Part shown: piece after piece, positions 6,285 to 29,299 of the stretch | How the letters are laid out: each line of letters begins with the position of its first letter | Numbering within the stretch: position 1 is the stretch's first letter | Virus record (IMG/VR): IMGVR_UViG_3300044950_000174 | Span: 1-29,682 of that record | From: a virus | Direction: 5' to 3' (one strand) | DNA length: 29,682 nt | Notes under the pieces: model-generated | The model's database searches: none | The model's input: the letters and a program-made list of their open reading frames with translations, nothing else | Told to the model about the DNA's origin: nothing | Program-made: the position numbers and the translations under genes

Positions 6285-6739
6285 TTTGTTGCTCCTTTGT
6301 TCAATTCAGCGGCTTGATTGTGTAAGTCTATGAACTCTTTAGGTACAGGACAGTTTTCAATATACTTGATAACTTCTTCTTTCTTAATGACTTCTTTATC
6401 AATGTACTTGATAATGTCACGACCCTTTTCACGGATGATTTTAGTCTTTTCTACGACTTTTTCTTGGATCTCTACATTCGTAGTAGCTGATTTTGCTTCA
6501 GCTTGTGCTACTTTGGCTTCCATCTCTTTAACTCTAAGTTCCCATTCTTTATAGTCGGCTAAGCCGCCCTCAAGATAGACACCCAAGACTAGCACAAGTA
6601 AACTAATGACTTGTATTGCTAGTTTATAAGTTTTGACAAAAGGAATGAATCCTAGGACGAATCCTGCTATTGTGCCCAAAATACCCAATCCAAAGATTGT
6701 ATGTATTGCGGCTTCGGGTAGTATTGATAATATCCACAT
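6281..6739 (-). CDS. Inner-membrane spanin (i-spanin, Rz-like)
   Basis: This 152-residue protein has two N-terminal hydrophobic segments (about residues 12-35 and 40-57), then a long charged coiled-coil-like region (about 62-128, rich in E, K, V and I heptads), and ends with NCPVPKEFIDLHNQAAELNK, a tail reminiscent of Rz proteins. i-spanins anchor in the inner membrane and span the periplasm to contact the o-spanin. The two membrane segments are unusual for a classic single-pass Rz but occur in larger phage i-spanins. The ATG lies 5 nt after a perfect TATAAATA octamer with no clear Shine-Dalgarno. No holin or endolysin is recognisable in the window. Confidence 0.8.
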   Translation of the reverse strand: MWILSILPEAAIHTIFGLGILGTIAGFVLGFIPFVKTYKLAIQVISLLVLVLGVYLEGGLADYKEWELRVKEMEAKVAQAEAKSATTNVEIQEKVVEKTKIIREKGRDIIKYIDKEVIKKEEVIKYIENCPVPKEFIDLHNQAAELNKGATK

Positions 6740-6744
6740 ACACT

Positions 6745-6752
6745 TATTTATA
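6745..6752 (-). promoter_or_regulatory. T4-type late promoter octamer (TATAAATA) for the spanin cassette
   Basis: A perfect TATAAATA on the minus strand, 5 nt before ATG 6739. It is back to back with AATAAATA on the plus strand at 6755-6762, forming a divergent late-promoter pair. Confidence 0.6.
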
Positions 6753-6754
6753 CG

Positions 6755-6762
6755 AATAAATA
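6755..6762 (+). promoter_or_regulatory. Late promoter-like octamer (AATAAATA) for the plus-strand radical SAM gene
   Basis: AATAAATA differs by one base from the T4 late octamer. It ends 8 nt before ATG 6771. No Shine-Dalgarno is visible between them. Confidence 0.45.
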
Positions 6763-6770
6763 ATATAACA

Positions 6771-7736
6771 ATGAAAAAACTGATAAAAATAGAATCTGTA
6801 AAAACTACTCCTTTTAAAAAAATTGATTGGAAATTAGGTAATGTGTGTAACTATGATTGTGCATACTGCTACCCACTAGAAAAAAACGGTAGTTTACCGT
6901 TCGTTGATATAGCTACAAATAAGGCAGTTGTAGACAAATTATGTGATATGTATTCCGGAGAAAAAATACTGTTCAATTTTACCGGTGGAGAGCCTACTCT
7001 ATATCCAGAATTATACGAACTGTTATCTTACATAAAGAAGAAAAATTCTGAGCATTTTATAAGACTCATAACTAATGGTAGTAGAACGTTAAGATGGTGG
7101 AATGAGTTTTTAGAAGATCCAGTAGTAGATAATATATTATATACTTTTCATTATAGTCAGGTCAAAGATGTTGACAAATTTATTGAAGTAACAAACGCTA
7201 TTCAACACAAAGAGATAGAAGGATTGATATTTTTTACAAGCACCGATGTTGACTTTGATTCAATACAAGAAAAATTTGAGTATATATCTGACAGAGTAGG
7301 GATAGAATGTCATTTGAAGAAAATACACGGACCTATTTTGAACAAATATAGTTCTTCACAAGAACAAATATTACAAACTACCCGTGTTAAACATGGAAAA
7401 TTAGCTAGTACAAAAAAGAAACATAATAAAGAGTTCAAACATCACGGTAAACTATATTACAATGATGGGACTGACGAACTTATAAAAGACCCTCAACTTA
7501 TTTTTATCAATAATCAAAACAAATTTTTAGGTTGGGAATGCTCTATAGGTATAGACAGACTGGTAATATTAGTTGATACCGTATATCGAGGAGTGTGTAA
7601 AGTTGGTGGACCAATAGCATCTATTTTAGATGATTTTACTCCATCAACTAAACCAGTATTGTGTAACATAAAAACTTGTACTTGTGGTGGAGAATTTTTT
7701 GAAACAAAAAACCAACGTATCGTAATTAATTATTAA
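6771..7736 (+). CDS. Radical SAM enzyme with C-terminal cysteine cluster
   Basis: This 321-residue protein carries the [4Fe-4S]-SAM motif CNYDCAYC (C26, C30, C33), the downstream FTGGEPTLYPE strand and LITNGSRTLRWW, all typical of radical SAM cores. The last ~75 residues hold five further cysteines (in GWECS, GVCK, LCNIKTCTCGG), which suggests an auxiliary Fe-S cluster of the SPASM or twitch kind. It is related to the convergent gene at 7747-8721. I chose ATG 6771 rather than an upstream in-frame start because the longer version would read through the divergent promoters and into the spanin gene. The substrate is unknown. It is one of only two plus-strand genes in the window. Confidence 0.85.
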   Translation: MKKLIKIESVKTTPFKKIDWKLGNVCNYDCAYCYPLEKNGSLPFVDIATNKAVVDKLCDMYSGEKILFNFTGGEPTLYPELYELLSYIKKKNSEHFIRLITNGSRTLRWWNEFLEDPVVDNILYTFHYSQVKDVDKFIEVTNAIQHKEIEGLIFFTSTDVDFDSIQEKFEYISDRVGIECHLKKIHGPILNKYSSSQEQILQTTRVKHGKLASTKKKHNKEFKHHGKLYYNDGTDELIKDPQLIFINNQNKFLGWECSIGIDRLVILVDTVYRGVCKVGGPIASILDDFTPSTKPVLCNIKTCTCGGEFFETKNQRIVINY

Positions 7737-7746
7737 AGGAACAGTA

Positions 7747-8721
7747 TCAATTTTTATATTTCTTAGTATATAAATTACCAGAACAATAACAAGATTCATA
7801 TGGGCATTTTACATATTCATCAATAAATGATACTTCATCTACATCCAAGTCAGCAATTATACCGGATATTTTACAATCCATTTGTCCTCGTCTACACAAA
7901 TTATTTTCTACGGTTAATACATCATTATTAACATTACACATCCAATTTAAAAAATGATTTTGATTTTGTTTAATTAATTCTTGTGCTCCACTAAACACTT
8001 CAACCGTATCATTATCGTATGTGATAGCAATTTTATTTTCATATTGATTTTCTAATGGTATATCTGATTGGGTTTTATTTAATTTTTTGCCAAAATATGA
8101 TTTTTTGATATATTCTATCTGTGAGTCTGTCAGGTTTAACTTTATATCGTAATGATCAGGGGAATTCATATGCTTGATTTCAATTTTACTGGCTGTATTT
8201 TCTAGTAAAAAACCGAGTGATTCCATTACCAAATCCATAGTAGTATGTGTATTTGTATGTGTTATAAAACAATTAGTTTTTGTAGGTTCATCGTGGAATA
8301 GATTTAAAACTTCTGCTACGTGTTTATAATTGGTTGTTTGTTCGGGATGATATGTAATATACAATGAATCTAAAATTTTTGAATCTTTGCATTCTTTCCA
8401 CCATCTCAATGTTCTGCTCCCATTAGTGATTAAACATACATAAGCCCCTTTAGCTTTTAAGTAAGACATTAATTCAATAAACTCAGGGAATAATGTGGGT
8501 TCACCACCTGTCAATATAAACCAAGGATTAGGACCAGTTGCATTAAGTAATTTGTCTACATACATTTTATAGGTATCTAGCGATTTCCATCTTCTATCTC
8601 CTATCTTGTGTTCGGGTCCACAAAAAGAACAATTATAATTACAAACATTATGTAAAGACCATTCAATAGTTTTATGAAGTGTGGGTCTTACTTTTTCTGA
8701 TGCTATGGGAATTATATTCAT
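7747..8721 (-). CDS. Radical SAM enzyme, paralogue of the convergent plus-strand gene
   Basis: This 324-residue protein has CNYNCSFC (C27, C31, C34), ILTGGEPTLFPE and LITNGSRTLRWWKE, the same order and spacing as the gene at 6771-7736. It also has a C-terminal cluster CPYESCYCSG and additional cysteines (WMC, NLCRR, DCK) for an auxiliary cluster. The two genes converge with only a 10-bp gap and no terminator. The start is ATG 8721, 4 nt after a TATAAATA octamer that also forms the end of the aminotransferase gene (codons Tyr-Lys-stop). Because it follows the aminotransferase and epimerase genes, it may act on the same sugar or amino-sugar product, but this is inferred only from position. Confidence 0.85.
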   Translation of the reverse strand: MNIIPIASEKVRPTLHKTIEWSLHNVCNYNCSFCGPEHKIGDRRWKSLDTYKMYVDKLLNATGPNPWFILTGGEPTLFPEFIELMSYLKAKGAYVCLITNGSRTLRWWKECKDSKILDSLYITYHPEQTTNYKHVAEVLNLFHDEPTKTNCFITHTNTHTTMDLVMESLGFLLENTASKIEIKHMNSPDHYDIKLNLTDSQIEYIKKSYFGKKLNKTQSDIPLENQYENKIAITYDNDTVEVFSGAQELIKQNQNHFLNWMCNVNNDVLTVENNLCRRGQMDCKISGIIADLDVDEVSFIDEYVKCPYESCYCSGNLYTKKYKN

Positions 8722-14969: not shown

Positions 14970-15072
14970 CTACATCTTTCATCATTCCCAAGAATCTAAT
15001 TAAGGCAATAACAAAAAGCCAACATAAGCCTAATATAAGTATTGAAATTATAATATAGTCAAGCCAACTCAT
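14962..15072 (-). CDS. 36-residue single-pass membrane peptide
   Basis: A short frame fills the gap between the VWA gene and the 80-residue gene. It starts with ATG at 15072, sharing one base with the VWA TAA stop, and ends at 14962, overlapping the next ATG by 8 bp. The peptide starts MSWLDYIIISILILGLCW and continues through a long hydrophobic stretch (residues about 6-27) to a charged tail GMMKDVDD, consistent with one membrane helix and an acidic cytoplasmic end. The exact junctions at both ends argue that it is translated. Its function is unknown; a partner of the VWA/MoxR system is possible. Confidence 0.62.
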   Translation of the reverse strand: MSWLDYIIISILILGLCWLFVIALIRFLGMMKDVDD

Positions 15073-16349
15073 TATTTTTCATCATAGATAGCATAAGTAC
15101 CGAATGGGGGATTCGGATTCTTATCACCATGAATGATCCAAGTTGTATCACAATAATCTGCATCACCCCAACTACCACAGGGATATCCATCAGTGAATAC
15201 AATCAATCGTTTGGGATCAATCGCATTCTCTTTCAAGTACGTAAAGATACAGTCAAAGTCAGTACCACCACCGCCCATTGGCTCATATTCTTCAATACTT
15301 TCCATATTCTCACTAGAGAAATCTTTCGGATTATATGTATCAGTATCAAAGCAGAATACGTGGACCTTATAACCATCAAACGCATCCATCATACCACCAA
15401 TTTCACCTAAGAATTGTTGGGCTTGTTTGTTGCTAATTGAACCTGACATATCAATAGATACGACAACATCAATTTCCTCTCCCGGTGTCATACCGGGCAT
15501 AATAGCATCCATATGCCAACCTCTGCGTGAGGGACGCATCCAACTGTAATCTGTACGAATAGCACTTGTCAGATTAGTTTGAATCAGTTCACGCCAAGGC
15601 ATAACTGGGTTAGTATGTTGACGGATCAATCGTTCGACACCTAAGGGCAACTGACCTGCTTCTGCACTTTGTGCGGCATTGATAATAGCTTGCTTAACTT
15701 CCTGACGTACACGTTCACGTTCCTCAGCACTCATTGAGGGACGTTTGCCTTTACCCTCTTTATCCCCATCACCTTCATTGTCACCGTCTCCGTCACCATC
15801 CATATGATCGTCAATCATCTGATCCAATAAATCTTCAATAGAGATTTTCTGAACGTTTTTCATCAAATCATCATAGATAGCTTCTGCGGCTTTACCATCA
15901 TATTTTGATTCATACAAACAAGGTACAGTAGTAATGAATTGGCCAACTTTGTGACGTTTCAAATCTGCATTGACTGCATAGTCATCGGCAATGTTCCAGA
16001 TTTCAGGATCACGATTATCACGGCGACCCATATGATCATACACAACGTGTAACACTTCGTGACCAACTAAAAATTCAACTTCTTTCGGCTTCAACATCAT
16101 AATGAAGCGACTATTATAATAAAACTTCTGACCATCAGTTGCCGCAGTACTACACCATAGATCGGCATTAACCAATTGCATACGTGTGGCAAGATTACCA
16201 AAGAATGAATGACGTAATAGTAAACCAATACGTGCGGTTACTAAACGTTCACGTGCCAGTGCATCAATTTTGCTATCTGTAGGTCCTACAAGATTCTCAA
16301 ATTTCTTACTGCGGCTACGTTTTTTAGTGGGATTAAGTACTTCGCTCAT
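15072..16349 (-). CDS. VWA-domain protein with N-terminal metallopeptidase-like domain (DUF2201-type)
   Basis: This 425-residue protein has two domains. Residues ~30-170 resemble the putative metallopeptidase domain that precedes VWA in this family, with the zinc motif HEVLH (H97, E98, H101) and ADDYAVN after it. A low-complexity acidic linker (DGDGDGDNEGDGDKEGKGK, ~183-201) follows. The C-terminal VWA domain has a MIDAS motif DMSGS (D300, S302, S304), GGGTD (T363) and FTDG (D387). Such proteins work with MoxR AAA+ ATPases as remodelling or insertion chaperones, and a MoxR gene lies just upstream at 16604-17704. A consensus sigma70 promoter and AAAGGACC ribosome binding site precede ATG 16349. 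Confidence 0.85.
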   Translation of the reverse strand: MSEVLNPTKKRSRSKKFENLVGPTDSKIDALARERLVTARIGLLLRHSFFGNLATRMQLVNADLWCSTAATDGQKFYYNSRFIMMLKPKEVEFLVGHEVLHVVYDHMGRRDNRDPEIWNIADDYAVNADLKRHKVGQFITTVPCLYESKYDGKAAEAIYDDLMKNVQKISIEDLLDQMIDDHMDGDGDGDNEGDGDKEGKGKRPSMSAEERERVRQEVKQAIINAAQSAEAGQLPLGVERLIRQHTNPVMPWRELIQTNLTSAIRTDYSWMRPSRRGWHMDAIMPGMTPGEEIDVVVSIDMSGSISNKQAQQFLGEIGGMMDAFDGYKVHVFCFDTDTYNPKDFSSENMESIEEYEPMGGGGTDFDCIFTYLKENAIDPKRLIVFTDGYPCGSWGDADYCDTTWIIHGDKNPNPPFGTYAIYDEK

Positions 16350-16375
16350 ATTGGTCCTTTACTGTTTATGTGTCT

Positions 16376-16404
16376 ATTATAGCAGAATTTCTATTTATTG
16401 TCAA
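16376..16404 (-). promoter_or_regulatory. Consensus sigma70 promoter for the VWA gene
   Basis: On the minus strand TTGACA (16404-16399) and TATAAT (16381-16376) are both perfect and 17 bp apart. The -35 overlaps the TGA stop of the 50-residue gene. Confidence 0.85.
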
Positions 16405-16553
16405 ATTGACAAGCCACGATAACCTGCATCAAATGCAATACGTGCGTAATCCTGTGCGGACTCAATAGCATACAAGGCCATTCCTTGGTCCTTTGATAAA
16501 CCTTTTGCTCGGGCACTTTGTCCCAATGCGTAAAAATATTTCTTACCTGACAT
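16401..16553 (-). CDS. 50-residue hypothetical protein
   Basis: This short gene lies between MoxR and VWA. It starts at ATG 16553 behind a strong AAAGGAATATA ribosome binding site and ends at TGA 16401-16403. The peptide begins MSGKKYFYALGQSARAKGLS and is predicted helical, with no membrane segment or export signal (KDQGMALYAIESAQDYARIA). The stop codon is part of the -35 element of the next promoter. The MoxR terminator ends within its ribosome binding site region. Its function is unknown. Confidence 0.68.
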   Translation of the reverse strand: MSGKKYFYALGQSARAKGLSKDQGMALYAIESAQDYARIAFDAGYRGLSI

Positions 16554-16563
16554 TATATTCCTT

Positions 16564-16598
16564 TAAAAAAAGGGTGAGCATATTGCTACACTCACCCA
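16564..16598 (-). terminator. Intrinsic terminator after the MoxR gene
   Basis: Stem GGGTGAG/CTCACCC (16591-16597 with 16572-16578) is followed by seven T residues on the minus strand. The T run abuts AAAGGAA, the ribosome binding site of the 50-residue gene, so readthrough would be needed to express that gene from upstream. Confidence 0.75.
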
Positions 16599-16603
16599 TA
16601 AAA

Positions 16604-17704
16604 TCATTCACCAGCTTGCACAATGTACTTGCCGTATTTCTTATGAAACTCATCAAAGTTTTTCAACTGACTTGGCTCAATCGGCAACTTGTAAGTTTTC
16701 AATGCAATTTTTGCACCCATTACAACTAACTCAGTTTCAAAGTTTGCCATAATGTAATTAAAGAAGTTGTCAGCCATTTCGTGGAACTTCTTACTGTCCA
16801 CTTTCTTATTCTCTAATGCATCACGCAATTCATAGCACATTGAAATAGTCAATGAGTACATAGCAGAAATTTCTTTAACTGCAAGGTCCTTAACTTTGCC
16901 TGACAAAATGTCAGAGGGCTCGGGCATACGACCTGCAACTTTGCGGTGTGCCGCAAACTTAACAGCAAGACCTTCACCAACTGCACCACTAATCAAATTG
17001 AACAATGTATCTGTATCAGTGTCATCCTCGTCATTCAACAAGTCACTAACAAAACACCAGCTACGTGGTGTAGCAAATGCACGTGAACTAGATTTGCCAT
17101 CAAACTCATACAGGTCCTGTTTAGCGAATGATAGATAACCCACAACGTCCTTGTGAATAGCTTTATTCACAGCCCAAGTCTGCCAAGCAGTAAAGTCGGC
17201 TCGCATTTCTAAGTGTAAGAAACGATTAGCGAGGGGCATCGGCATACGATATGTAACACCTTTGTCGCTATCACGATTACCTGCCGCAACGATAACAACA
17301 TTATCAGGTAGTACATACTTACCAACTCTACGATTCAAAATCAACTGATAGCCTGCTGCCTGAACTGCGGGGCTTGCACTATTCATTTCATCTAAGAATA
17401 GAACAACGATCGGGTATTGACTTGCTAATTCATCATCGGGTAAGTCAACTGGTGCCGCCCAATCCATTTTATTAATATCACGATTGAAGTATGGGATACC
17501 ACGAATATCAGTAGGTTCCATTTGTGCCATACGCAAGTCAATCATATGACCGCCTAGTTCTGCCGTAACTTCTGCTACAACTTCACTTTTACCGATGCCG
17601 GGCGGACCCCACAAAAAGAGTGGACGTTTTGCCTTGAAAGCTTTAAGAATAGCTTTGCGGGCTTGAACTGACGTAATCGTCAGATTATCTGATACTGATG
17701 CCAT
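16604..17704 (-). CDS. MoxR-family AAA+ ATPase
   Basis: This 366-residue ATPase has Walker A WGPPGIGKS (residues 32-40), Walker B VVLFLDEMNSA (D105/E106), sensor-1 VIVAAGNRDSD (N143) and an arginine in MPLANRF (~R162). MoxR ATPases pair with VWA proteins to remodel or activate target complexes; the metallopeptidase-like/VWA gene lies a short distance downstream, so the two are likely partners. Targets in a phage are unknown. It has a good ribosome binding site (CAGGAG) and two candidate sigma70 promoters, at 17736-17764 and 17838-17866. Confidence 0.9.
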   Translation of the reverse strand: MASVSDNLTITSVQARKAILKAFKAKRPLFLWGPPGIGKSEVVAEVTAELGGHMIDLRMAQMEPTDIRGIPYFNRDINKMDWAAPVDLPDDELASQYPIVVLFLDEMNSASPAVQAAGYQLILNRRVGKYVLPDNVVIVAAGNRDSDKGVTYRMPMPLANRFLHLEMRADFTAWQTWAVNKAIHKDVVGYLSFAKQDLYEFDGKSSSRAFATPRSWCFVSDLLNDEDDTDTDTLFNLISGAVGEGLAVKFAAHRKVAGRMPEPSDILSGKVKDLAVKEISAMYSLTISMCYELRDALENKKVDSKKFHEMADNFFNYIMANFETELVVMGAKIALKTYKLPIEPSQLKNFDEFHKKYGKYIVQAGE

Positions 17705-18553: not shown

Positions 18554-19435
18554 TTAGAAGCGATGTGTTACACCAACTCCAACTTGTTTTACGTCATTTG
18601 CTGTACCTGTAGCATCAACATTACGATAGTTAACACCCACCGCAGTACGCTTACTGAAGTTATAATCAGCACCCATTGCATAAGCTTTTACATCAGTGTT
18701 TGTTTTACCATAGCTTGCTTTAGCAGTTACTCGGCCAAATTGTTGACTTGCGCCAAACAAATCACCGGTACGTGCTACGGCACCTTTGTCATCACTATGT
18801 GAGTAAAATACTTGTGTATTGCCTAACTTTGCGCTACCAGCATACACTGTGCTTTGCTCAATACCTTGAGTATATTGTGCAACTGTTGCATTAATGCCAA
18901 ACAATTTTGCACTTGCACTATAGCTACTTGCTTCTGTACCTACACCATTTTGTGTGCGGTCATAAGTTGCAGTTACACCTTTGATTGGTGTTAATGCAAA
19001 GAATGTACCATTGCTGATACGTAGACCACGCAAGTTATGTACGTCACCAGCTACGCTACCATACAATGTGCCAAAAGCGTCATTGTTAGTAATTGCCAAG
19101 AAGTGACTGTGTAGATTGCGACCTAAATCGATGCTACCCATCTTGTTTGATAAACCAATTGTTGATTGGCGATCACCAAGTTTAGTATCTGCACCAGTGA
19201 TAGGATCATTGGCTCTTAAACTTGTATCTAATACTACACGAGCCTTCATACCACCAATGTTTTCATTTACTGAAATAGTGATGTTGCTTGTTGGATCAGT
19301 AGCTAGAGTTGTTTTGCTAGTAGCACCAATTTCAGTATTGTCAACGAATGTGCTGATTTTACCATTTAAATTAACTTGTGCTGTAGCAACCATTGTTGTT
19401 GCTGCCAATAATGTCGCTATTGCGATTTTCTTCAT
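18554..19435 (-). CDS. Gram-negative outer-membrane porin (betaproteobacterial type)
   Basis: This 293-residue protein has a Sec signal peptide (MKKIAIATLLAATTMVATA then QVNLNGK) and a mature beta-barrel pattern of alternating polar and hydrophobic residues (VNLNGKISTFVDN, TVAQYTQG, TAVGVNYRNV), ending in the aromatic C-terminal signature VGVTHRF used by the Bam machinery. The conserved segment MGSIDLGRNL and early barrel strands match the porin family common in Burkholderiales. It is somewhat short for that family. A porin is very unusual cargo for a phage genome. A TATAAATA octamer and strong AAAGGAAAA ribosome binding site precede it, and near-identical terminators flank it. It could change outer-membrane permeability or receptor presentation in infected cells. 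Confidence 0.88.
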   Translation of the reverse strand: MKKIAIATLLAATTMVATAQVNLNGKISTFVDNTEIGATSKTTLATDPTSNITISVNENIGGMKARVVLDTSLRANDPITGADTKLGDRQSTIGLSNKMGSIDLGRNLHSHFLAITNNDAFGTLYGSVAGDVHNLRGLRISNGTFFALTPIKGVTATYDRTQNGVGTEASSYSASAKLFGINATVAQYTQGIEQSTVYAGSAKLGNTQVFYSHSDDKGAVARTGDLFGASQQFGRVTAKASYGKTNTDVKAYAMGADYNFSKRTAVGVNYRNVDATGTANDVKQVGVGVTHRF

Positions 19436-20662: not shown

Positions 20663-21703
20663 ATGAGTAAAAAAATTTACACAAGAACCATTAATCCAGA
20701 CGGGGCAAGATTTTGTAACTCGCCTTGGAATACTGTATCTATTGCAAACGATACTAGGCCAGGTAGACCTCGACCAGGTGACGTTGAAATGTGTTTGTGT
20801 AGAGATTGGCAAACATCAGAACCTATAGGAAATATATTTGATAAACCGTTATCTGAAATATTCAACGATGTTATTGCAACAAAATTTAGAAACACAATAC
20901 TAGACCAATCTTTTAGTTATTGCGATACTAATATTTGTGGTAGGTATTGGGAAATGCCAAAGGTAGCATCGCTTGATTATGAAATTAATAAAATTAAAAA
21001 AACATTGCCTACTAACTTAGCACTAGGATTAGATTCTAATTGCAATTTATCTTGTGCTAGTTGTCGTAGTGAGAGTATATTCAGTCCTCAAATTGACGAG
21101 TCTGCTTGGCAAATTTTAACAAAATTGTCAGATGAGTATAAAGACTTTCAAGAACCTACCGAGATTAGCATAGACAGTAGTGGTGACATATTTGCGAGTG
21201 CTGTCTGGAGGAAATATTTAAATGGTAATAACATACCAAAATGTTTTAGATTTAGAATTACTACTAATGGCAATCTTATAACAAAAAATTTAGACCTAAT
21301 TGAAAATATTAAGGATCAGATTTCTGAAGTAACTGTTAGTTTAGACGCAGGTACTAGTGACACTTATAAAGAGGTTAGAGGTGGAAGTTTTAAGTTAGTA
21401 GTAGAAGGTATAGAAGCATTAGTAGGTATGGGAATTAGAGTAGGTACTCAATTTGTATTACAACAAAAAAATCACAAAGAAATAATAATTTACAGAGACT
21501 TAGCTAATAGTTTAAAAGTCAATTGGATAGGGCTAGCACAGATAGTACATTGGTTCCATATGTCTCCTGAATACTGGAATGCAAATAAACTTGAAGATAA
21601 TCCTAATATTGATTACAAATTGTTAGTTGAATCATTGCGTGAATTTTCTACCACATATAACGGAACAATGAGTGGTGGACTTTTAAAATTGATAAAAGAA
21701 TAG
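20663..21703 (+). CDS. Radical SAM protein with N-terminal SPASM/twitch domain
   Basis: This 346-residue protein starts with a cysteine-rich SPASM/twitch-like domain: FCNSPWNTVSIAND (C18), VEMCLCRDW (C44, C46), IGNIFDKPLSEIFND, then SYCDTNICG (C87, C92). The radical SAM core follows with CNLSCASC (C127, C131, C134), RITTNGNL and VTVSLDAGTSDTYKEVRGG. The auxiliary domain thus precedes the core, the reverse of most SPASM enzymes; this order is known from a family of twitch-domain radical SAM proteins also found in phages. The substrate is unknown, and peptide or sugar modification are both possible. It is on the plus strand, convergent with pstS. Confidence 0.85.
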   Translation: MSKKIYTRTINPDGARFCNSPWNTVSIANDTRPGRPRPGDVEMCLCRDWQTSEPIGNIFDKPLSEIFNDVIATKFRNTILDQSFSYCDTNICGRYWEMPKVASLDYEINKIKKTLPTNLALGLDSNCNLSCASCRSESIFSPQIDESAWQILTKLSDEYKDFQEPTEISIDSSGDIFASAVWRKYLNGNNIPKCFRFRITTNGNLITKNLDLIENIKDQISEVTVSLDAGTSDTYKEVRGGSFKLVVEGIEALVGMGIRVGTQFVLQQKNHKEIIIYRDLANSLKVNWIGLAQIVHWFHMSPEYWNANKLEDNPNIDYKLLVESLREFSTTYNGTMSGGLLKLIKE

Positions 21704-21743: not shown

Positions 21744-22751
21744 TTATTTGATTTGTGTCCAAACTCGTTCGCGGATCTGCTTTGTTAGTGCATCCGGTAA
21801 TGGTACATAATCTAAATCTATAGCATCTTTCTTACCATTCTTAAATGCCCAGTCAAAGAACTTTAGTACTTCATCACTATTGGATTTGCTCTTTGGCTCT
21901 TTGTACATAATGATGAAACTAGCAGAACTTACTGGCCAAGCATTAGGATTCTTTTGGTCTACAATACTTAATCCCATACCAGGAACACTGAACCAATCAG
22001 CACCATCTGCCGCGGCTGCAAATGTTAAGTCATCCGGTGACACATACTTGCCACTCTTGTTCTGTAACTGTAGAAACACCATATTGTTTTTCTTAACATA
22101 GGCATACTCAACATAACCAATTGATCCTTTGATACGATTTACATTAGCCGCAACACCTTCATTGCCTTTGCCACCTACACTATTTGGTGACGGCCATTTA
22201 ACTGCGGCACCACGACCTACTTTAGCTAGCCACTCTGGACTAACAGTGGCAAGATAGTCTGTCCAATTAAAAGTTGTGCCACTACCATCAGCACGATGAA
22301 CCACTGTGATCAGTTCGTTAGGCAAATTTTTGCCTGGATTCAATGCCACCAACTTAGGATCATTCCATCTAGCAATAGTACCCATGAATACTTCAGCCAT
22401 TACAGGTCCTGTAATTTTTAGTTCGCCGGGCTTGATACCGTCTAAGTTAACTACTGGAACAGTGCCGCCAATGATTGCCGGGAACTGAACTTGTCCGTTC
22501 TTGTCTAGGTCTTCACCTTTGACTGGAGCATCAGTTGCACCAAAGTCTACTGTCTTTGCGTTGATTTGTCTAATGCCACCTGAACTACCAATGCTTTGAT
22601 AATTTAAACTGTTACCAGTGGCTTTCTTATATCCTTCAGCCCATTTAGAATAGATAGGCATTGGAAAAGTCGCACCAGCACCTGTTATGTCTGCGCCAAC
22701 TGCGACTGTTGATATTAACAATGCACTTAATAATGCTGTTATTTTTTTCAT
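21744..22751 (-). CDS. pstS: Periplasmic phosphate-binding protein PstS
   Basis: This 335-residue protein captures phosphate in the periplasm for the host PstCAB transporter. It has a Sec signal peptide (MKKITALLSALLISTVAVGA), the mature start DITGAGATFPMPIYSKW, and the phosphate-site loops GSSGGIRQI, DFGATDAPV and RADGSGTTFNWTDYL, with a full-length C-terminus. ATG 22751 follows a strong AAGGAG ribosome binding site and fits the signal peptide; a 27-residue longer in-frame start would place the Pho box inside the gene. No pst permease genes are present, so it would serve the host transporter, as phage-borne pstS is known to do in marine cyanophages. A leader hairpin (22763-22783) partly covers the ribosome binding site. 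Confidence 0.95.
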   Translation of the reverse strand: MKKITALLSALLISTVAVGADITGAGATFPMPIYSKWAEGYKKATGNSLNYQSIGSSGGIRQINAKTVDFGATDAPVKGEDLDKNGQVQFPAIIGGTVPVVNLDGIKPGELKITGPVMAEVFMGTIARWNDPKLVALNPGKNLPNELITVVHRADGSGTTFNWTDYLATVSPEWLAKVGRGAAVKWPSPNSVGGKGNEGVAANVNRIKGSIGYVEYAYVKKNNMVFLQLQNKSGKYVSPDDLTFAAAADGADWFSVPGMGLSIVDQKNPNAWPVSSASFIIMYKEPKSKSNSDEVLKFFDWAFKNGKKDAIDLDYVPLPDALTKQIRERVWTQIK

Positions 22752-22830: not shown

Positions 22831-22856
22831 AAAAGAAAAGGGCAACTAGTGCCCTA
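22831..22856 (-). terminator. Intrinsic terminator after the tmRNA gene
   Basis: GGGCA-CTAGT-TGCCC is followed by TTTTCTTTT on the minus strand. It lies about 20 nt beyond the predicted 3' end of the coding piece. Confidence 0.8.
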
Positions 22857-22869
22857 TCTGATTTTCTGT

Positions 22870-23175
22870 TACGAGGTATGTCTTACCCTAAGCGGCGTTT
22901 AGGCTGCTAATGCGAACTGTGAGTCGTTTGCGTTTACTTTTGTGCTTCTATAGTCGGGAACCCCCAACCCTAACGGCTTCTGCTTTGCCGAGCTGTCCAC
23001 TAATTTACTTGTTGCCCTGTCGAATCTAGGTCAGGCCCATCATAAAGAAACTAGGTTGTCATTTCGTTAAAAATGAAAAGTAAAATAACTATTATTACTA
23101 TCCACTTGCTGAAATTTTCCATTATATTCCTTTATGGTGGACCTGGGGGGATTCGCACCCCCGTCCAAGACACTT
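22870..23175 (-). ncRNA. ssrA: Circularly permuted (two-piece) tmRNA, tag ANDSQFALAA
   Basis: tmRNA frees stalled ribosomes and adds a degradation tag. Here the order along the transcript is reversed. The acceptor piece comes first: GTGTCTT (23173-23167), T arm GGGGG-TGCGAAT-CCCCC, CAGGTCC, discriminator A, and encoded CCA ending at 23135. A 96-nt intervening segment follows. The coding piece then starts GGGCCTGACCTAGATTCGAC at 23038. GGGCCTG pairs with CAGGTCC over 7 bp (one G-U), and GTGTCTT pairs with AAGACAT (22884-22878) over 7 bp (one G-U), rejoining the two pieces. The tag frame (22899-22931) encodes ANDSQFALAA and a TAA stop. Outer ends are approximate, and no clear promoter is seen. 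Confidence 0.93.
23051..23122 (-). CDS. 23-residue membrane peptide ORF inside the tmRNA intervening segment
   Basis: Four bases after the encoded CCA end of the acceptor piece comes AAAGGAATATAATG, a strong ribosome binding site and ATG, followed by 23 codons and a TAG. The whole frame lies in the segment that would be cut out of the permuted tmRNA. The peptide starts MENFSKW, continues with a hydrophobic stretch IVIIVILLFIF, and ends NEMTT, suggesting a very short transmembrane peptide. The same 14-base AAAGGAATATAATG context starts the 50-residue gene at 16553. There is no homology evidence; such a short frame could be chance, but the initiation signal is among the best in the window. Confidence 0.5.
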   Translation of the reverse strand: MENFSKWIVIIVILLFIFNEMTT

Positions 23176-23207
23176 TTCTCTTTGCTTCATACAGCAATAA
23201 CTTTTAT

Positions 23208-25199
23208 TTAATCCCACTTACCATTACCAATGTAATGATACTTAAAACTTAAATCATACTTGTCATTGAACTCATTGCTAATAGCACCTTGTTCATTCCA
23301 AGTCAGTACTGGTTCTCTAGTAGGATCAGATAACATTATAATACGTTTGTAAGAATTTGTCTCTTTCTTTGGGTGAATATTGTGATACTCCCAAGGTCTT
23401 TCGGGCTGTTGAAATGCGTAATCACAATCAGCTAGCCAATTACCATTCTCGTCAATGCTAAATTTTATCTTAGCACTAAAATTATCACCCAATGAACTAC
23501 TGAATTCTTTTGTGTCCATTTCAGGATCAAATATAATTTCAGTCTCAAATGCGCCACGTGTCTTGTACATTATGTAGAGTGATGCCCACACTTCATTCAC
23601 AACTGAGTCAGCAAATGCACTTATGTTTGGTTTACAAATATTAAAATCAATATCTTCATACGTGTAATCGTTTGCTATCGAGTCTGATTTGAAATCTATC
23701 TTGTAATGTGATTCTAACTTTCTAACTGTCAGTGGTACATTATCTTCAAGTACAAAATTATTCAAAAAGATATTAAAGGTTTTAATTCTAATTAGTCGGT
23801 GAATCTTTGAATTCTTAAAGTCATTTGTAATCCAAGTACCTAAATATTGTACAGGAGATATATTATACTTTGGTCTGTTCTGCCCTAACAAATTATCTTC
23901 TGCTACAAAACATCCTAATCCAGAAGCAACGAAACTAACATTATAATTACGTATTCTCCATAACAAGGTCATAGTATGTAAGAAGTCTATTGGTTCTTCA
24001 GTGGGGAATCCAAATATAAGCATAACTGTTCCAGTCATACCTACAGTTTTAGAATCTCTAAAATTACGTTCAATCTCATCGTTAGTGATACCTTTATCCA
24101 TATCACGTAATACTTTGTTAGATCCAGACTCAACTCCATAACCAAAGTTAGTACAACCTGCAGCCGCTAAATCTTTATAAAAGTCTAGATCCATTCTACC
24201 ATCGCAACGTGCCCAGCCTGTCCAGTTAATTTTCATTTCACTGGCAATCACTCCTTTAGCAAAACCACGTAACTCTTTTAAGTTACCGTTTACTAAACTA
24301 TCTAAGAACCAAAAGTTATTGATTCCCCTGTCGTATAAGCCACGCACTTCATCTAACACACGCATTGCTTGTCTATCTCTGTACTTCCAAAAGTGTGTTT
24401 CATCACAGAATGTACATTTAACAATACATCCTCTACTAAATTCCATAGTGACACCATTTGGAAATTTATACTGATTGAAGTCAAAATCGCTATAGTCAGG
24501 TAAAGGTAATTCATCTAAACTAATACGCTGGTCAATCGCTTGTGATAAAAATTGTGTATCTTTGTGTCTAACGCCCGATTCAATTTCGCCCAATACGTGT
24601 AGTAATAACTCTTCACCTTCACCGGCTACTAGATAATCTACGTGAAAGTCAAAGAACGTGTTACTACGATTAGCAGAAGGTCCGCCAATCATTATCATTA
24701 GATTAGGTAAACGCTTTTTCAATTCTTGTGCCATTGTTGTAACAGCCATCTTGTTACATTCGTATACACTAAAGCCAACAACAGTAGGGTTGAGTTCTAC
24801 TACTTTGTCAACATACTTCATTATCAATGGATCAAGATTATTTTTTATTTCACACTGATAAGCATCAGCGTGTGTCCATTTAAACATATAAGGATCATAC
24901 CAAGGATCATAATCTAGTCCCCAATTTTTACTGTCTTGAAATGCCGCAACATTTAAATCAAAGGCGTGTGTCTTATATCCTGCATTGCGTGTTAAGCCAA
25001 CAAGTCTAGCAACATTGTATGGAGCCATAGCAACAGACCATTCAGGTAACATTAAAAAGCATACACTTGTATTACGTGTAGCATAATCGACTTTTACCTC
25101 AGTAAGTCCTTTTCTAGGCGTTTGTCTGGCATAGGGTAGTAGTGCCGCTAAAATGCGTTTGTCTTTATCGGCGTAATCGTTGTATGGTTCTGTTGACAT
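23208..25199 (-). CDS. B12-binding-type radical SAM protein
   Basis: This 663-residue protein has an N-terminal Rossmann-like region of the cobalamin-binding class (about 45-210: SVCFLMLPEWSVAMAPYNVA, VVGFSVYECN, IMIGGPSANR, YLVAGEGEE), then the radical SAM core with FSRGCIVKCTFC (C258, C262, C265), WFLDSLVNG, NFGYGVESGSNKVLRDMDKG and MLIFGFPTEEP. The last ~200 residues are an extra domain I do not recognise. A classic DxHxxG cobalamin ligand motif is not evident, so B12 use is uncertain. Enzymes of this type perform methylations or rearrangements on unactivated carbons. It sits between the tmRNA and the repeat protein with an 8-bp gap to the latter, and is likely co-transcribed with it. Confidence 0.85.
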   Translation of the reverse strand: MSTEPYNDYADKDKRILAALLPYARQTPRKGLTEVKVDYATRNTSVCFLMLPEWSVAMAPYNVARLVGLTRNAGYKTHAFDLNVAAFQDSKNWGLDYDPWYDPYMFKWTHADAYQCEIKNNLDPLIMKYVDKVVELNPTVVGFSVYECNKMAVTTMAQELKKRLPNLMIMIGGPSANRSNTFFDFHVDYLVAGEGEELLLHVLGEIESGVRHKDTQFLSQAIDQRISLDELPLPDYSDFDFNQYKFPNGVTMEFSRGCIVKCTFCDETHFWKYRDRQAMRVLDEVRGLYDRGINNFWFLDSLVNGNLKELRGFAKGVIASEMKINWTGWARCDGRMDLDFYKDLAAAGCTNFGYGVESGSNKVLRDMDKGITNDEIERNFRDSKTVGMTGTVMLIFGFPTEEPIDFLHTMTLLWRIRNYNVSFVASGLGCFVAEDNLLGQNRPKYNISPVQYLGTWITNDFKNSKIHRLIRIKTFNIFLNNFVLEDNVPLTVRKLESHYKIDFKSDSIANDYTYEDIDFNICKPNISAFADSVVNEVWASLYIMYKTRGAFETEIIFDPEMDTKEFSSSLGDNFSAKIKFSIDENGNWLADCDYAFQQPERPWEYHNIHPKKETNSYKRIIMLSDPTREPVLTWNEQGAISNEFNDKYDLSFKYHYIGNGKWD

Positions 25200-25207
25200 T
25201 ATTATAT

Positions 25208-28200
25208 TTAACTCTTATTGTACTTAGTATCGAATTTAGCTCTTAACCAAGGCCAATCATAGCTTAAACGTAACAACTCTAAATCACCGTTTACTTCTTT
25301 ATAATATTCTACAGCGTCTTTGGCACCGTTAATACTGTATTCAGAAAAACTACCTTCTCCAACAGTTAACCAAATCTTCAATCTATTCTCGCTAATGTAT
25401 GAATCATCTGCACATAATTTTAATGCTTCTCTAAATGCAGTACGCCAGGTACTCCAAGCGTCAGTATTGAATACTGCTATACCACTATTCTGTTGTACAA
25501 CTTCGTGTTCATCATCCAATGTAAAGTCAAGACCTCTACCACTGTTAGCTAATGTAATCTTCTTGTTATAAGCAATCATAGCCTGATGACCATATTCTAG
25601 TTTATTAACTGGGTTGGTTGCGTGAAAGATATAATGCTTAGGTAACTGCAATCTATCTGGTTGCCAATTCCAATCAAAATTCTCATTCACATATAGTTTA
25701 GCAAACACAGTAAACATCCAAGGTGTGTTGCTTGCCTCAGCGGCAGCGTGATAGGCGGCAACACGACCATTTACTCCGTCAACCCTAACAACACGATTGG
25801 GTAGATTCTTTGTGACTTTAAGTAATCGTTGATAATTATCTTCTGCACCAACTTCTCCGTTACTTAAGAATACAATATCTAATGGCTGAGATTGAGTTAG
25901 TTTAAAGTTAGTAGTGATGTATGGATAATCATACAATTCTCTTTTAACATAGCCTTTAGCTTCTTTAGGCACAACAATTCGTGTACCACCGGTGCTAGTA
26001 ATTTTAATAGTCTTATGTTTAATGTCCCATAAACTCATGGGTTCATTATCGGTTACTTTGATTTCTTTATTGTCGGACGTGATATACGTAGCATAAGGCC
26101 AATTATAATCACTATGAATAGTAGAGACATGGGTATCGCTTTCAGAAATAATAACGGGTTCAGGTAAACGCTTAACACGCATATGATTATTATAGTTTAC
26201 TTTTCTATAATCTTCAAGTGTTTCCATCGTATCCATCAACTCACGTAAACGGTTAACATCCACTAAGAATGTGTCACCAAACTTTTGTTTATCGCTAGGG
26301 AATACGTGTAGTTGTTCTCTAGCAAACGGGTCGCAAATATATTTAAAGTCAAAATTGTTGTAGTCGCATATAGAACTACAAACCCAAATATAATGTTCTT
26401 TTTTATTGGGTACTGCTTTTAATATCTGCTTAAATGTATCAAAATAACTGTTACTGTATGGTACAGTAGTTAGTGCTTTGCCTGTTGTTTTTTGTTTTAG
26501 TGTATCAATAATTAATGGTGTTTCTATGTTACCATGGTCAATTACAAATACATCGTACAAACAATCAGTGGCTGTTGCTCTACGATTCTTAACAAAATTT
26601 AATGTAGATAAATGTTCAATGATTTTAATATACTTTGTATCTTCACCAAACGTATCTCTATTAACCATAAAGGTTGTGCCCCAATGACTGTACTGAGTTC
26701 CAAACACGTGAACTAATGACATTTGCCAAGGGTTAGGGTAGTAGTCAAATTCAAACTCAGTGTAATCTAATTCACTGTTCAATATCCAACATAGTTTAGT
26801 TGATGATTTGTTAAGACAACGATTTATTGTTTCTACCCACGAATTTAAATAACGAGTTTTTTGTAATTTAGGAAAACGTTGTTGTAATGCTAAGAATCTT
26901 TGTTGTGACTCTGTATTGCTTTTATCTACAAAAAACATATCCAATGTGGTTCTAATGACTAGACTGTTATCTTCAATGTAGTTTATATCTGTAAAGCCTT
27001 CACGGTACAAGGGTGCATTAACAAAGTAAGTTTGTGTATTAATGTTTTCACTAGTACCAAATGCGTGAACATACTTAATTTGCTGTATGTCTGGGCGCCA
27101 TTCAAAATTGAAATCACTGTAATCAATGTCGGTGTTCAATGCCCAAAACACTTCATCTGGATGCAATATAATTAAGTCTTCCAGTGTTGTTTCAATATAA
27201 TATCTATTGAATTCAATACCAGTATCAACAGATTCTGGTCTTTCTAAATGAACTATCTCAGTAGAACCAGGTACTATGTACTTAGGACCATCATTCTCAT
27301 CAATGATTGTACCAAATTGATAAATGTATGGTGGGCTAGTAGCATCTGGATGCCAACTAAAATCAAACTTAGTGATATCTATTCCAACCGAAGCTTCCCA
27401 GTTCGTCATATCGGCAGAGACTATTGATTTAGGAAATTCTACAAATTTAACTTCATCTGCACCTTCAACAATAAATTGAGGCCCGTGTGTCTTAGCCCAT
27501 TGAGTACCAAACTGGTATATATACGGGGGATCCTTAGGATTGGGCCTCCAAGAGAAATCAAAAGCTTTTAACGCTTTAGGTATAACAAATAATTCAGGTT
27601 TATTAACAAGTGTAGCTACTATATCGTCTATAAACTTTTCTTGTGTTGCACCCGGTTTATGTAATCTAACAGTTGGCATTATAGTGCCGGGGTATTGTTT
27701 GTTACCGAATACATATGTGTACGGTTGCTCTGTTGGATTAGGTCTCCAACTGTAATCAAATTTTTCAATATCTTCTAATACTTCCCACCCTTCAGTATAT
27801 GCTGATGCTGTAACTAAAATATCCGTTACGTATTTTATTTCAGTCGCACCTTCAACAACATATCTTACTGTAGGTTCTAATTCTGCTCTGTTCCACTGAT
27901 TACCAAATACATATATGTACGGAGGGTCATTGGGATTAGGTCTCCAGCTATAGTCAAAATTGTCTACTGGTATAATTGTTTCCCAATTGTCAGTGGGGCT
28001 TGCTGTTGCAATAATATCAGTAATAAATTTTCTATTAGTTGCACCTTCAACTGTGTATTCTAATGTGGGTTCTGTAATAGCATCGTGCCATTGATTACCA
28101 AATACGTATATATAGGGTTCTTCAGTATCATCTGGATGCCAAGAGTAATCAAAATTATCTACTTCTACTAATGTTTTCCATCTAGCAGTATCAGGGATTG

Positions 28201-29299
28201 CTGTAGCTTTAATATCATCTACATATTTAATATCTGATAAAGAGGTAGTATGTTTGATATATCTAGGTCCACCTGTCTTTTGCCATTGTGTACCAAATTG
28301 ATATATAAAATTTTCTTCTGTGCTATCAGGATGCCAACTAAAATCAAATTTACTGTCATCTATGTGTTCTGGAATAAACCAATCAGATTTATTAGCTATT
28401 GATTTTGCAATTGGATTACTAACGTATTTGAGTTCTGTAGCACCTTCAACGATGTATCTAGGTCCACCTGTCTTTTGATGCTGTGTACCAAATTGATATA
28501 TAAGAGGTGGATCAGTTGGATCTGGATGCCAAGTAAAATCAAATGAGTCTAACTCAATGTTTTCAGGAATCTCCCATTTATCTTTTACAACCGATATCGC
28601 TTTAGCTTTTGGTGTTATTTCATATTTGAGTTCAGTGGCACCGTCAACGATATATCTAGGTCCACCTTTACTTTGATGTTGTGTACCAAATTCATATATA
28701 AAAGCCCCGGCAGTGTCGTCAGGGTGCCAGCTAAAGTCAAACGTACTTGAATCAATATAGTCTGGTATTTCCCAATTAGTTAAATTAGATAGTGCTTTAG
28801 ATATCTGCACATCCATGTATTTAATTTCAGTAGCACCATCAACTATGTAACTAGGTCCACCTGTCTTTTGATGCTGTGTTCCGAATTGGTATATGAATGG
28901 AGGATCAGTTGGGTCTGGATGCCATTTAAAATCAAAAGATAACTTGTCTATAAACTCAGGAATGTTCCAATTACTAACAATAATTTCTTTTCTATCTAAT
29001 GGATTTACATCACCACGATATACTATAATCTCACTATCACCCTCTGAACACAACCAAGTTCCGCTATCTTTTTGATAACGACTTGGCCACACATTGTTGT
29101 GTTCACTAGTCCAAACATCTTCATCGTTTAAAAAATCAAAATCAAAATCCCAATCAAAACCACGATAATCACAAAATTCATTGATTATCCAAAAGTGTTC
29201 TGTTGTACATTGTTGTTTAGCGTCAGCTAAATCAAGTGCGTGTCTTTCCCTGGGGTGGACGTTAGGCTTTTCACCGAAATAAAATACATCTCTTAACAT
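25208..29299 (-). CDS. 1363-residue tandem-repeat protein with glycosyltransferase-like C-terminus
   Basis: Residues 111-690 hold nine tandem modules of 63-67 residues with the pattern W-x-I-P, F-D-[FY]-S-W-[HR]-P-[DN], PP-x-IY-x-FG[TN]Q, and a GAT-E-x-KY end. Three further diverged modules lie at about 719, 838 and 972 (FWALNTDIDYSDFNFEWRP, CWILNSELDYTEFEFDYYP, IWVCSSICDYNNFDFKY). The C-terminal domain (about 1138-1300) starts DIVFLSNGE, has VNGRVAAYHAAAEASNTPW, and repeats the module idea in NENFDWNWQPD; it reads like a GT-A glycosyltransferase fold, but I cannot confirm this. No signal peptide is present. The neighbours are a carbamoyltransferase and a B12-type radical SAM enzyme, which suggests a modification pathway. 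Confidence 0.78.
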   Translation of the reverse strand: MLRDVFYFGEKPNVHPRERHALDLADAKQQCTTEHFWIINEFCDYRGFDWDFDFDFLNDEDVWTSEHNNVWPSRYQKDSGTWLCSEGDSEIIVYRGDVNPLDRKEIIVSNWNIPEFIDKLSFDFKWHPDPTDPPFIYQFGTQHQKTGGPSYIVDGATEIKYMDVQISKALSNLTNWEIPDYIDSSTFDFSWHPDDTAGAFIYEFGTQHQSKGGPRYIVDGATELKYEITPKAKAISVVKDKWEIPENIELDSFDFTWHPDPTDPPLIYQFGTQHQKTGGPRYIVEGATELKYVSNPIAKSIANKSDWFIPEHIDDSKFDFSWHPDSTEENFIYQFGTQWQKTGGPRYIKHTTSLSDIKYVDDIKATAIPDTARWKTLVEVDNFDYSWHPDDTEEPYIYVFGNQWHDAITEPTLEYTVEGATNRKFITDIIATASPTDNWETIIPVDNFDYSWRPNPNDPPYIYVFGNQWNRAELEPTVRYVVEGATEIKYVTDILVTASAYTEGWEVLEDIEKFDYSWRPNPTEQPYTYVFGNKQYPGTIMPTVRLHKPGATQEKFIDDIVATLVNKPELFVIPKALKAFDFSWRPNPKDPPYIYQFGTQWAKTHGPQFIVEGADEVKFVEFPKSIVSADMTNWEASVGIDITKFDFSWHPDATSPPYIYQFGTIIDENDGPKYIVPGSTEIVHLERPESVDTGIEFNRYYIETTLEDLIILHPDEVFWALNTDIDYSDFNFEWRPDIQQIKYVHAFGTSENINTQTYFVNAPLYREGFTDINYIEDNSLVIRTTLDMFFVDKSNTESQQRFLALQQRFPKLQKTRYLNSWVETINRCLNKSSTKLCWILNSELDYTEFEFDYYPNPWQMSLVHVFGTQYSHWGTTFMVNRDTFGEDTKYIKIIEHLSTLNFVKNRRATATDCLYDVFVIDHGNIETPLIIDTLKQKTTGKALTTVPYSNSYFDTFKQILKAVPNKKEHYIWVCSSICDYNNFDFKYICDPFAREQLHVFPSDKQKFGDTFLVDVNRLRELMDTMETLEDYRKVNYNNHMRVKRLPEPVIISESDTHVSTIHSDYNWPYATYITSDNKEIKVTDNEPMSLWDIKHKTIKITSTGGTRIVVPKEAKGYVKRELYDYPYITTNFKLTQSQPLDIVFLSNGEVGAEDNYQRLLKVTKNLPNRVVRVDGVNGRVAAYHAAAEASNTPWMFTVFAKLYVNENFDWNWQPDRLQLPKHYIFHATNPVNKLEYGHQAMIAYNKKITLANSGRGLDFTLDDEHEVVQQNSGIAVFNTDAWSTWRTAFREALKLCADDSYISENRLKIWLTVGEGSFSEYSINGAKDAVEYYKEVNGDLELLRLSYDWPWLRAKFDTKYNKS
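27230..28970 (-). repeat. Nine in-frame tandem repeats, period about 198 bp
   Basis: The module starts fall near residues 111, 176, 242, 307, 374, 439, 505, 571 and 634 of the large protein, a spacing of 63-67 codons. Modules 1-4 share GTQ[HW]Q.[KT]GGP.YI, modules 5-7 share YVFGN, and modules 8-9 return to the first type. The subfamilies point to stepwise duplication. Confidence 0.9.

Follow-up and report, generated by a model that had tools for sequence, protein, structure and literature searches.

The window analyzed in this study (the whole stretch of 29,682 nucleotides, IMG/VR record IMGVR_UViG_3300044950_000174) is a 29.7-kb fragment of a phage genome, and its minus strand carries a circularly permuted tmRNA gene. 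The half with the acceptor strand, T arm, and CCA end lies upstream of the half with the tRNA-like 5' end and the tag. Positions 23196-22899 (minus strand) were a full match to the Rfam model tmRNA_permuted (RF04321, model positions 1-213) with 117.2 bits against a cut-off of 47, while beta_tmRNA (RF01850), the best-scoring Rfam clade model, matched at 23248-22834 (minus strand) with 93.4 bits against a cut-off of 84. E-values for the tmRNA models over the window were 1.5e-22 and 2.6e-27. At gathering thresholds, the Rfam search of the window returned tmRNA families only, with no riboswitch and no other RNA family. ARAGORN also called a permuted tmRNA (tmRNA*) with the tag ANDSQFALAA. The permuted tmRNA proposed in a preliminary description of this DNA is thus confirmed by RF04321, by ARAGORN, and by the presence of all named pieces on the minus strand, and the permuted-tmRNA covariance models matched with the pieces in the order that the description had predicted. 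The gene reaches slightly beyond the proposed extent of 22870-23175, to the lower P2 strand at 23195 and to a terminator at 22855-22839 (minus strand).

The upstream acceptor piece (23135..23195, minus strand, as are all parts below) was delimited by the RF04321 and RF01850 alignments, ARAGORN, and 97% identity in a 342-kb relative. According to the Rfam alignments, it starts with the lower P2 strand GCUGU, followed by the P2 strand UGUCUUG (23172-23166) and GAC. The T stem-loop (23162-23146) reads GGGGG-UGCGAAU-CCCCC, with the loop UGCGAAU and G55 at 23156. It is followed by the acceptor 3' strand CAGGUCC (23145-23139), A73, and the encoded CCA (23138-23135). The CCA therefore ends at 23135, ahead of G1 at 23038, which bears out the claim that T arm and CCA precede the 5' end and the tag. 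Between them lies an intervening segment of 96 nt (23039..23134) that is predicted to be excised, based on its 54% identity to the relative, its closing helix, and its fold. In the precursor fold, the ends of this segment pair over 9 bp and extend the acceptor stem, with UGAU directly before G1.

The 5' part of the second piece (22932..23038) was assigned by Rfam alignment, pairing, and covariation. It begins with the acceptor 5' strand GGGCCUG (23038-23032), which pairs 7/7 with CAGGUCC, G3.U70 included. The D-loop ACCUAGAUUCGAC (A18 at 23027, UUCGAC) was read by eye and from the Rfam alignment. The P2 strand CAGGGCA (23019-23013), pairing 7/7 with UGUCUUG, and the lower P2 strand ACAGC (22996-22992) follow, and hairpins lead to the resume codon. 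The tag frame called by ARAGORN (GCA AAC GAC TCA CAG TTC GCA TTA GCA GCC TAA, 22931-22899) comprises the resume codon GCA, the peptide ANDSQFALAA, and the stop TAA; the ALAA ending had been anticipated correctly. By its parts and by comparison with the relative, it is an intact, maintained permuted tmRNA gene.

Downstream of the tag, the last hairpin has as its loop the segment CCUCGUAACAGAA (22865..22877), conserved in many phage tmRNAs. The stem that closes this hairpin is reduced in the window tmRNA and in the viral loci L049, L103, and L057, and is present in most relatives. An intrinsic terminator, AGGGCACUAGUUGCCCU (22855-22839) with a T-rich tail (22831..22855 in total), separates the tmRNA from pstS; four terminator-like sites were found against 0.5 expected from shuffles. 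A search for a promoter belonging to the tmRNA gave weak sigma-70-like matches only and no clear candidate. The T4 late promoter TATAAATA was rejected as a candidate, as the window showed no enrichment for it (97 near-matches would be expected, and 74 were present) and none lay directly at the tmRNA. The minimum free energy of the whole gene was modestly low (z -1.8), which is expected of a pseudoknotted two-piece RNA and is not positive evidence.

The neighboring genes are pstS, encoding a phosphate-binding protein (21744..22751, minus strand, Pfam PF12849), and, upstream, a radical SAM/B12-binding gene (23208..25199, minus strand, PF04055 and PF02310). Packaging and spanin genes, described earlier as lying beside the tmRNA, are not adjacent, with the terminase about 19 kb and spanin-like genes about 16 kb away. 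As a guide to relatives, the radical-SAM gene was discarded, since it gave a single distant match without a tmRNA. Several radical-SAM-like genes occur in the fragment (6633-8721, 20663-21703, 23208-25199), two identified by Pfam and two by resemblance only. A Pho-box-like site, TTGTCACATTCCTGTCAC (22818-22801, minus strand), precedes the phage pstS with a score of 11/14; it is only noted here, because the score is no better than that of two unrelated places on the other strand of the window. Further minus-strand genes encode a Gram-negative porin (Porin_4, 18554-19435), a protein of 1363 aa with many DFSWHPDPT..FGTQ-type repeats and no Pfam match (25208-29299), and, side by side, an AAA ATPase and a DUF2201 metallopeptidase/VWA-like protein (15072-17704); this MoxR-VWA-like pair is also conserved in the 342-kb relative.

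Covariation and tag conservation in viral relatives

Scanning IMG/VR with a degenerate T-arm pattern yielded at least 120 loci, most of which ARAGORN calls permuted tmRNAs. Among the matches listed, 81 unique viral sequences formed the covariation set, entry to which required the pattern of T arm and acceptor 3' side and at least 6/7 acceptor pairs. The acceptor was paired at 100% against 85% with random partners (maximum 89%, 2000 shuffles), a figure that is partly produced by this selection. P2 was paired at 90% against 68% with random partners (maximum 73%) and, because P2 pairing was not selected for, it carries the weight of the test. The two 7-bp pairings of the preliminary description therefore hold in the window and covary across the viral relatives. 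Acceptor positions 4 and 5 alternate between C-G, G-C, U-A, and A-U with several compensated variants, and G3.U70 and ACCA are kept in 81/81 sequences.

The closing helix of the intervening segment reached at least 6 bp in 72% of 80 viral segments, compared with 26% when partners were swapped, and 57/80 segments end in TGAT. Such paired ends fit what would be expected of a processed precursor. Between the window and its nearest relative, L049, the mature parts are 97, 88, and 91% identical and the intervening segment 54%, which at the sequence level is a pattern of purifying selection.

D-loop nucleotide 18 and T-loop nucleotide 55 switch together, being either G18/U55 or A18/G55 in 194 of 196 viral, alpha, beta, and one-piece tmRNAs (one member of the U55 class has C55). 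The two apparent exceptions retain the UAG motif and were re-read as D-loops with one extra base. When the columns for nucleotides 18 and 55 were removed before tree building, the supported branches gave nine independent contrasts, and all or almost all of them pointed the same way (p about 0.004, sign test). A18/G55 occurs in the window (23027 and 23156) and in all alphaproteobacterial rows, while 7/7 sampled bacterial beta sequences have G18/U55, unlike the window. This covariation of nucleotides 18 and 55 is read here as a tertiary contact in the elbow of the tRNA-like domain. Burks and colleagues noted the T-loop U to G change in the Caulobacter tmRNA (PMC1168896); the coupled 18/55 change was not found in the searchable literature, which is a weak negative.

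The tag itself is widespread in phages. The ANDSQFALAA pattern with a TCN serine occurred in at least 119 viral contigs and in 0 of 84,980 bacterial and archaeal species genomes, with the viral loci as positive control. The version with an AGY serine was searched in the viral contigs, where it was absent. Among the viral matches listed, all have an alanine codon (GCA or GCT) ahead of the pattern, all but one, which runs off its locus, have a TAA or TAG stop, and the tag appears in 15 synonymous spellings. ARAGORN called 75 of these loci permuted and none one-piece, with no call for 44, many of which are truncated because the retrieved sequence ends within them. Some viral permuted tmRNAs (L065, L069, L089, L040, L106, L020) have predicted tags of 24-31 aa, e.g., ANADTFDFSAMSFTGNTVRGAANESRFALAA, and very long predicted tags sometimes end in a normal-looking tag.

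Phage context, known tmRNAs, and the likely host

The nearest matches to the terminase in the window come from large T4-like phages, at about 49-51% identity. L049, the nearest tmRNA, lies on a 342-kb viral contig (G003), whose proteins match those of the window with identities of 68% for terL, 86% for pstS, 80% for DUF4214, 73% for AAA, 59% for DUF2201, 67% for the epimerase, and 45% for DegT. The order of six features (tmRNA, DUF4214, AAA, DUF2201, epimerase, and DegT) is shared between the two contigs. On G003, the tmRNA comes after 25 tRNAs within about 10 kb (28 tRNAs in the contig) and encodes the identical tag. Terminase and synteny support the earlier claim that the gene is phage-borne. 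A bacterial or chimeric origin of the contig, with the tmRNA as a bacterial gene, might be suggested by the bacterial look of pstS, porin, and metabolic genes, but it is extremely improbable in view of the terminase, the shared order of the six features in a viral contig, and the absence of the tag in TCN-serine spelling from the bacterial genomes searched. Among the isolated jumbo phages nearest by terminase, PA5oct, GAP32, Atu_ph07, and Vibrio 2.275.O had no match to a permuted tmRNA, and Phosso had one (see below).

Permuted tmRNAs of phages are already known, and the window gene adds a member. Buchholz and colleagues reported that phage Melnitz has a two-piece tmRNA; of the 18,146 phage genomes in their count, 402 carried tmRNAs, with 133 unique structures, of which 53 were two-piece, and 50 of the 53 came from marine or aquatic samples (PMC9004378). 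The gene is therefore less surprising than the preliminary description implied. The tmRNA database holds 79 phage sequences (PMC11915505), and mycobacteriophage tmRNAs together with a TLD-only RNA of DS6A were reported earlier (PMC4131195). Methylophilales phage Melnitz and Pelagibacter phage Mosig are, like the window, T4-like aquatic phages with a complete permuted tmRNA, for which a role in rescue or tagging has been proposed as it is here (PMC9004378). Their tmRNAs are alpha-type (Mosig has the tag GEDNFALAA and scores best with RF01849), whereas that of the window scores best with beta_tmRNA and encodes ANDSQFALAA; they also have a glutamine riboswitch (PMC9004378), while none was matched in the window at gathering thresholds. 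The mycobacteriophage tmRNAs of the Bxz1 group and the DS6A RNA (PMC4131195) are likewise phage-borne ssrA, but the former are not described as permuted and the latter has no tag.

Among isolated phages, Alcaligenes phage vB_Af_QDWS595 (L269, NC_070849) and Xanthomonas phages X1 (L002, OQ427096, 121009-121337) and Rb1 (L268, PQ569993) carry permuted tmRNAs like the window, with beta_tmRNA again the top-scoring model for QDWS595 (93.8 bits). They differ in having the G18/U55 elbow and the tags ANDNVYAAAA, VAANDADYSVARYA, and ANDDNFRPALRLAA, as opposed to A18/G55 and ANDSQFALAA. These three and Caulobacter phage CcrRogue (L270, NC_019408) have no annotation of the gene in their deposited records. 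Sinorhizobium phage Phosso (L259, PV764938, 349596-350198) carries an alpha-type permuted tmRNA. With the betaproteobacterial permuted tmRNA (RF01850), the window gene shares gene order, P2, and tag context, but the seven bacterial beta sequences sampled combine their G18/U55 elbow with ANDE- tags, compared to ANDS- in the window.

In a tree of about 165 alignment columns, from which cyanobacterial sequences were left out, the window and L049 were sisters (99/96) within a viral-only set of 16 (97/88). In a quick tree, the permuted tmRNAs of bacterial beta type were nested among the viral sequences; as a tree with all viral rows in one clade fits as well or better and was not rejected (AU p 0.67), the nesting was dropped as a claim. 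It is conceivable, though doubtful, that phages hold a long-lived lineage of permuted tmRNAs with tags of their own, independent of the one-piece genes of their present hosts, and that this lineage is the source of scattered bacterial permuted tmRNAs such as those in a minority of Burkholderiales.

Burkholderiales are proposed as the host group, with PstS as a proxy. The phage PstS is 60-74% identical to that of several Burkholderiales genomes. Among the nine genomes with the closest PstS, eight have a one-piece tmRNA and the ninth has no full match; the tags in the eight are ANDERFALAA (six), ANDESFALAA, and ANDERYSLAA. Only 7/200 Burkholderiales genomes passed the beta_tmRNA cut-off. If PstS is a fair guide, the phage tmRNA probably differs from that of its host in both form and tag. 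The one-piece genes and other tags of the closest-PstS genomes thus make the present host an improbable source of the phage gene, and they also speak against the reading of the gene as a functionless passenger, a host ssrA acquired by chance, e.g., at an integration site. While ssrA is a common integration site and its fragments occur in prophages (PMC9004378), this origin is very improbable for a whole gene with covarying stems and a pattern of selection, located at the same position in a distant relative and with a tag whose TCN-serine spelling is in none of the bacterial genomes searched.

Predicted role during infection

Intact anatomy, covariation, the pattern of purifying selection, and a conserved place in a phage lineage can all be read directly from the sequence, and the gene very probably provides a large T4-like phage with a functional two-piece tmRNA of its own. 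Ribosome rescue with host SmpB is its most likely role, where processing, charging, SmpB use, activity, and benefit are extrapolated from the tmRNA family. In the minus-strand transcript, the acceptor half would precede the tag half. Two cuts by host tRNA-processing enzymes, one behind the encoded CCA (23135) and one ahead of G1 (23038), would release the 96-nt segment and leave two pieces held together by the acceptor stem and P2. Host AlaRS would charge the RNA with alanine via G3.U70. SmpB was absent from the 20 phage records searched, in a search that matched the control genomes, and would therefore have to be supplied by the host; with EF-Tu, it would bring the charged RNA to ribosomes stalled on truncated mRNA. 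Translation would restart at GCA and append ANDSQFALAA, the ribosome would be released, and the tagged chain would pass to ClpXP/ClpAP. The likely gain is ribosome recycling while infection makes many broken mRNAs, alongside the tRNAs that the phage itself encodes.

The chief rivals to rescue are selection for tagging and interference with host trans-translation. In the first, a variant of the rescue reading, host proteins would be marked for degradation, or the tag would be handled differently by host adaptors, so that tagging rather than rescue is selected. A phage-specific tag common to many phages fits this possibility, which its authors suggested for Melnitz (PMC9004378). It is unlikely here, as tmRNA acts on any stalled ribosome, no sign of substrate choice was seen, and the C-terminal ALAA is unchanged. 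In the second, the phage RNA would compete for SmpB, AlaRS, or stalled ribosomes and so lower or redirect trans-translation in the host, a mode of action that has been proposed for the TLD-only RNA of mycobacteriophage DS6A. An expressed TLD-like RNA does inhibit tmRNA (PMC4131195; PMC11915505), and the phage tag is unlike those of the likely host group. However, at least 119 viral contigs keep an intact tag frame with its resume codon and stop, none of which a decoy would need, and the tag ends in ALAA, the usual protease signal. The intact, conserved tag thus argues against interference, which is even less likely than selection for tagging.

The window gene adds a clean beta-like example to the known tmRNAs of aquatic phages. 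Phage contigs commonly encode the exact tag ANDSQFALAA, which, with a TCN serine, occurs in none of the bacterial and archaeal species genomes searched. Should phages introduce a complete rescue RNA with its own tag into hosts whose tmRNA differs, that tag would serve as a built-in label, and tagged peptides from infected cells would directly reveal phage-driven trans-translation. The finding also bears on the origin of the patchily distributed permuted tmRNAs of bacteria.
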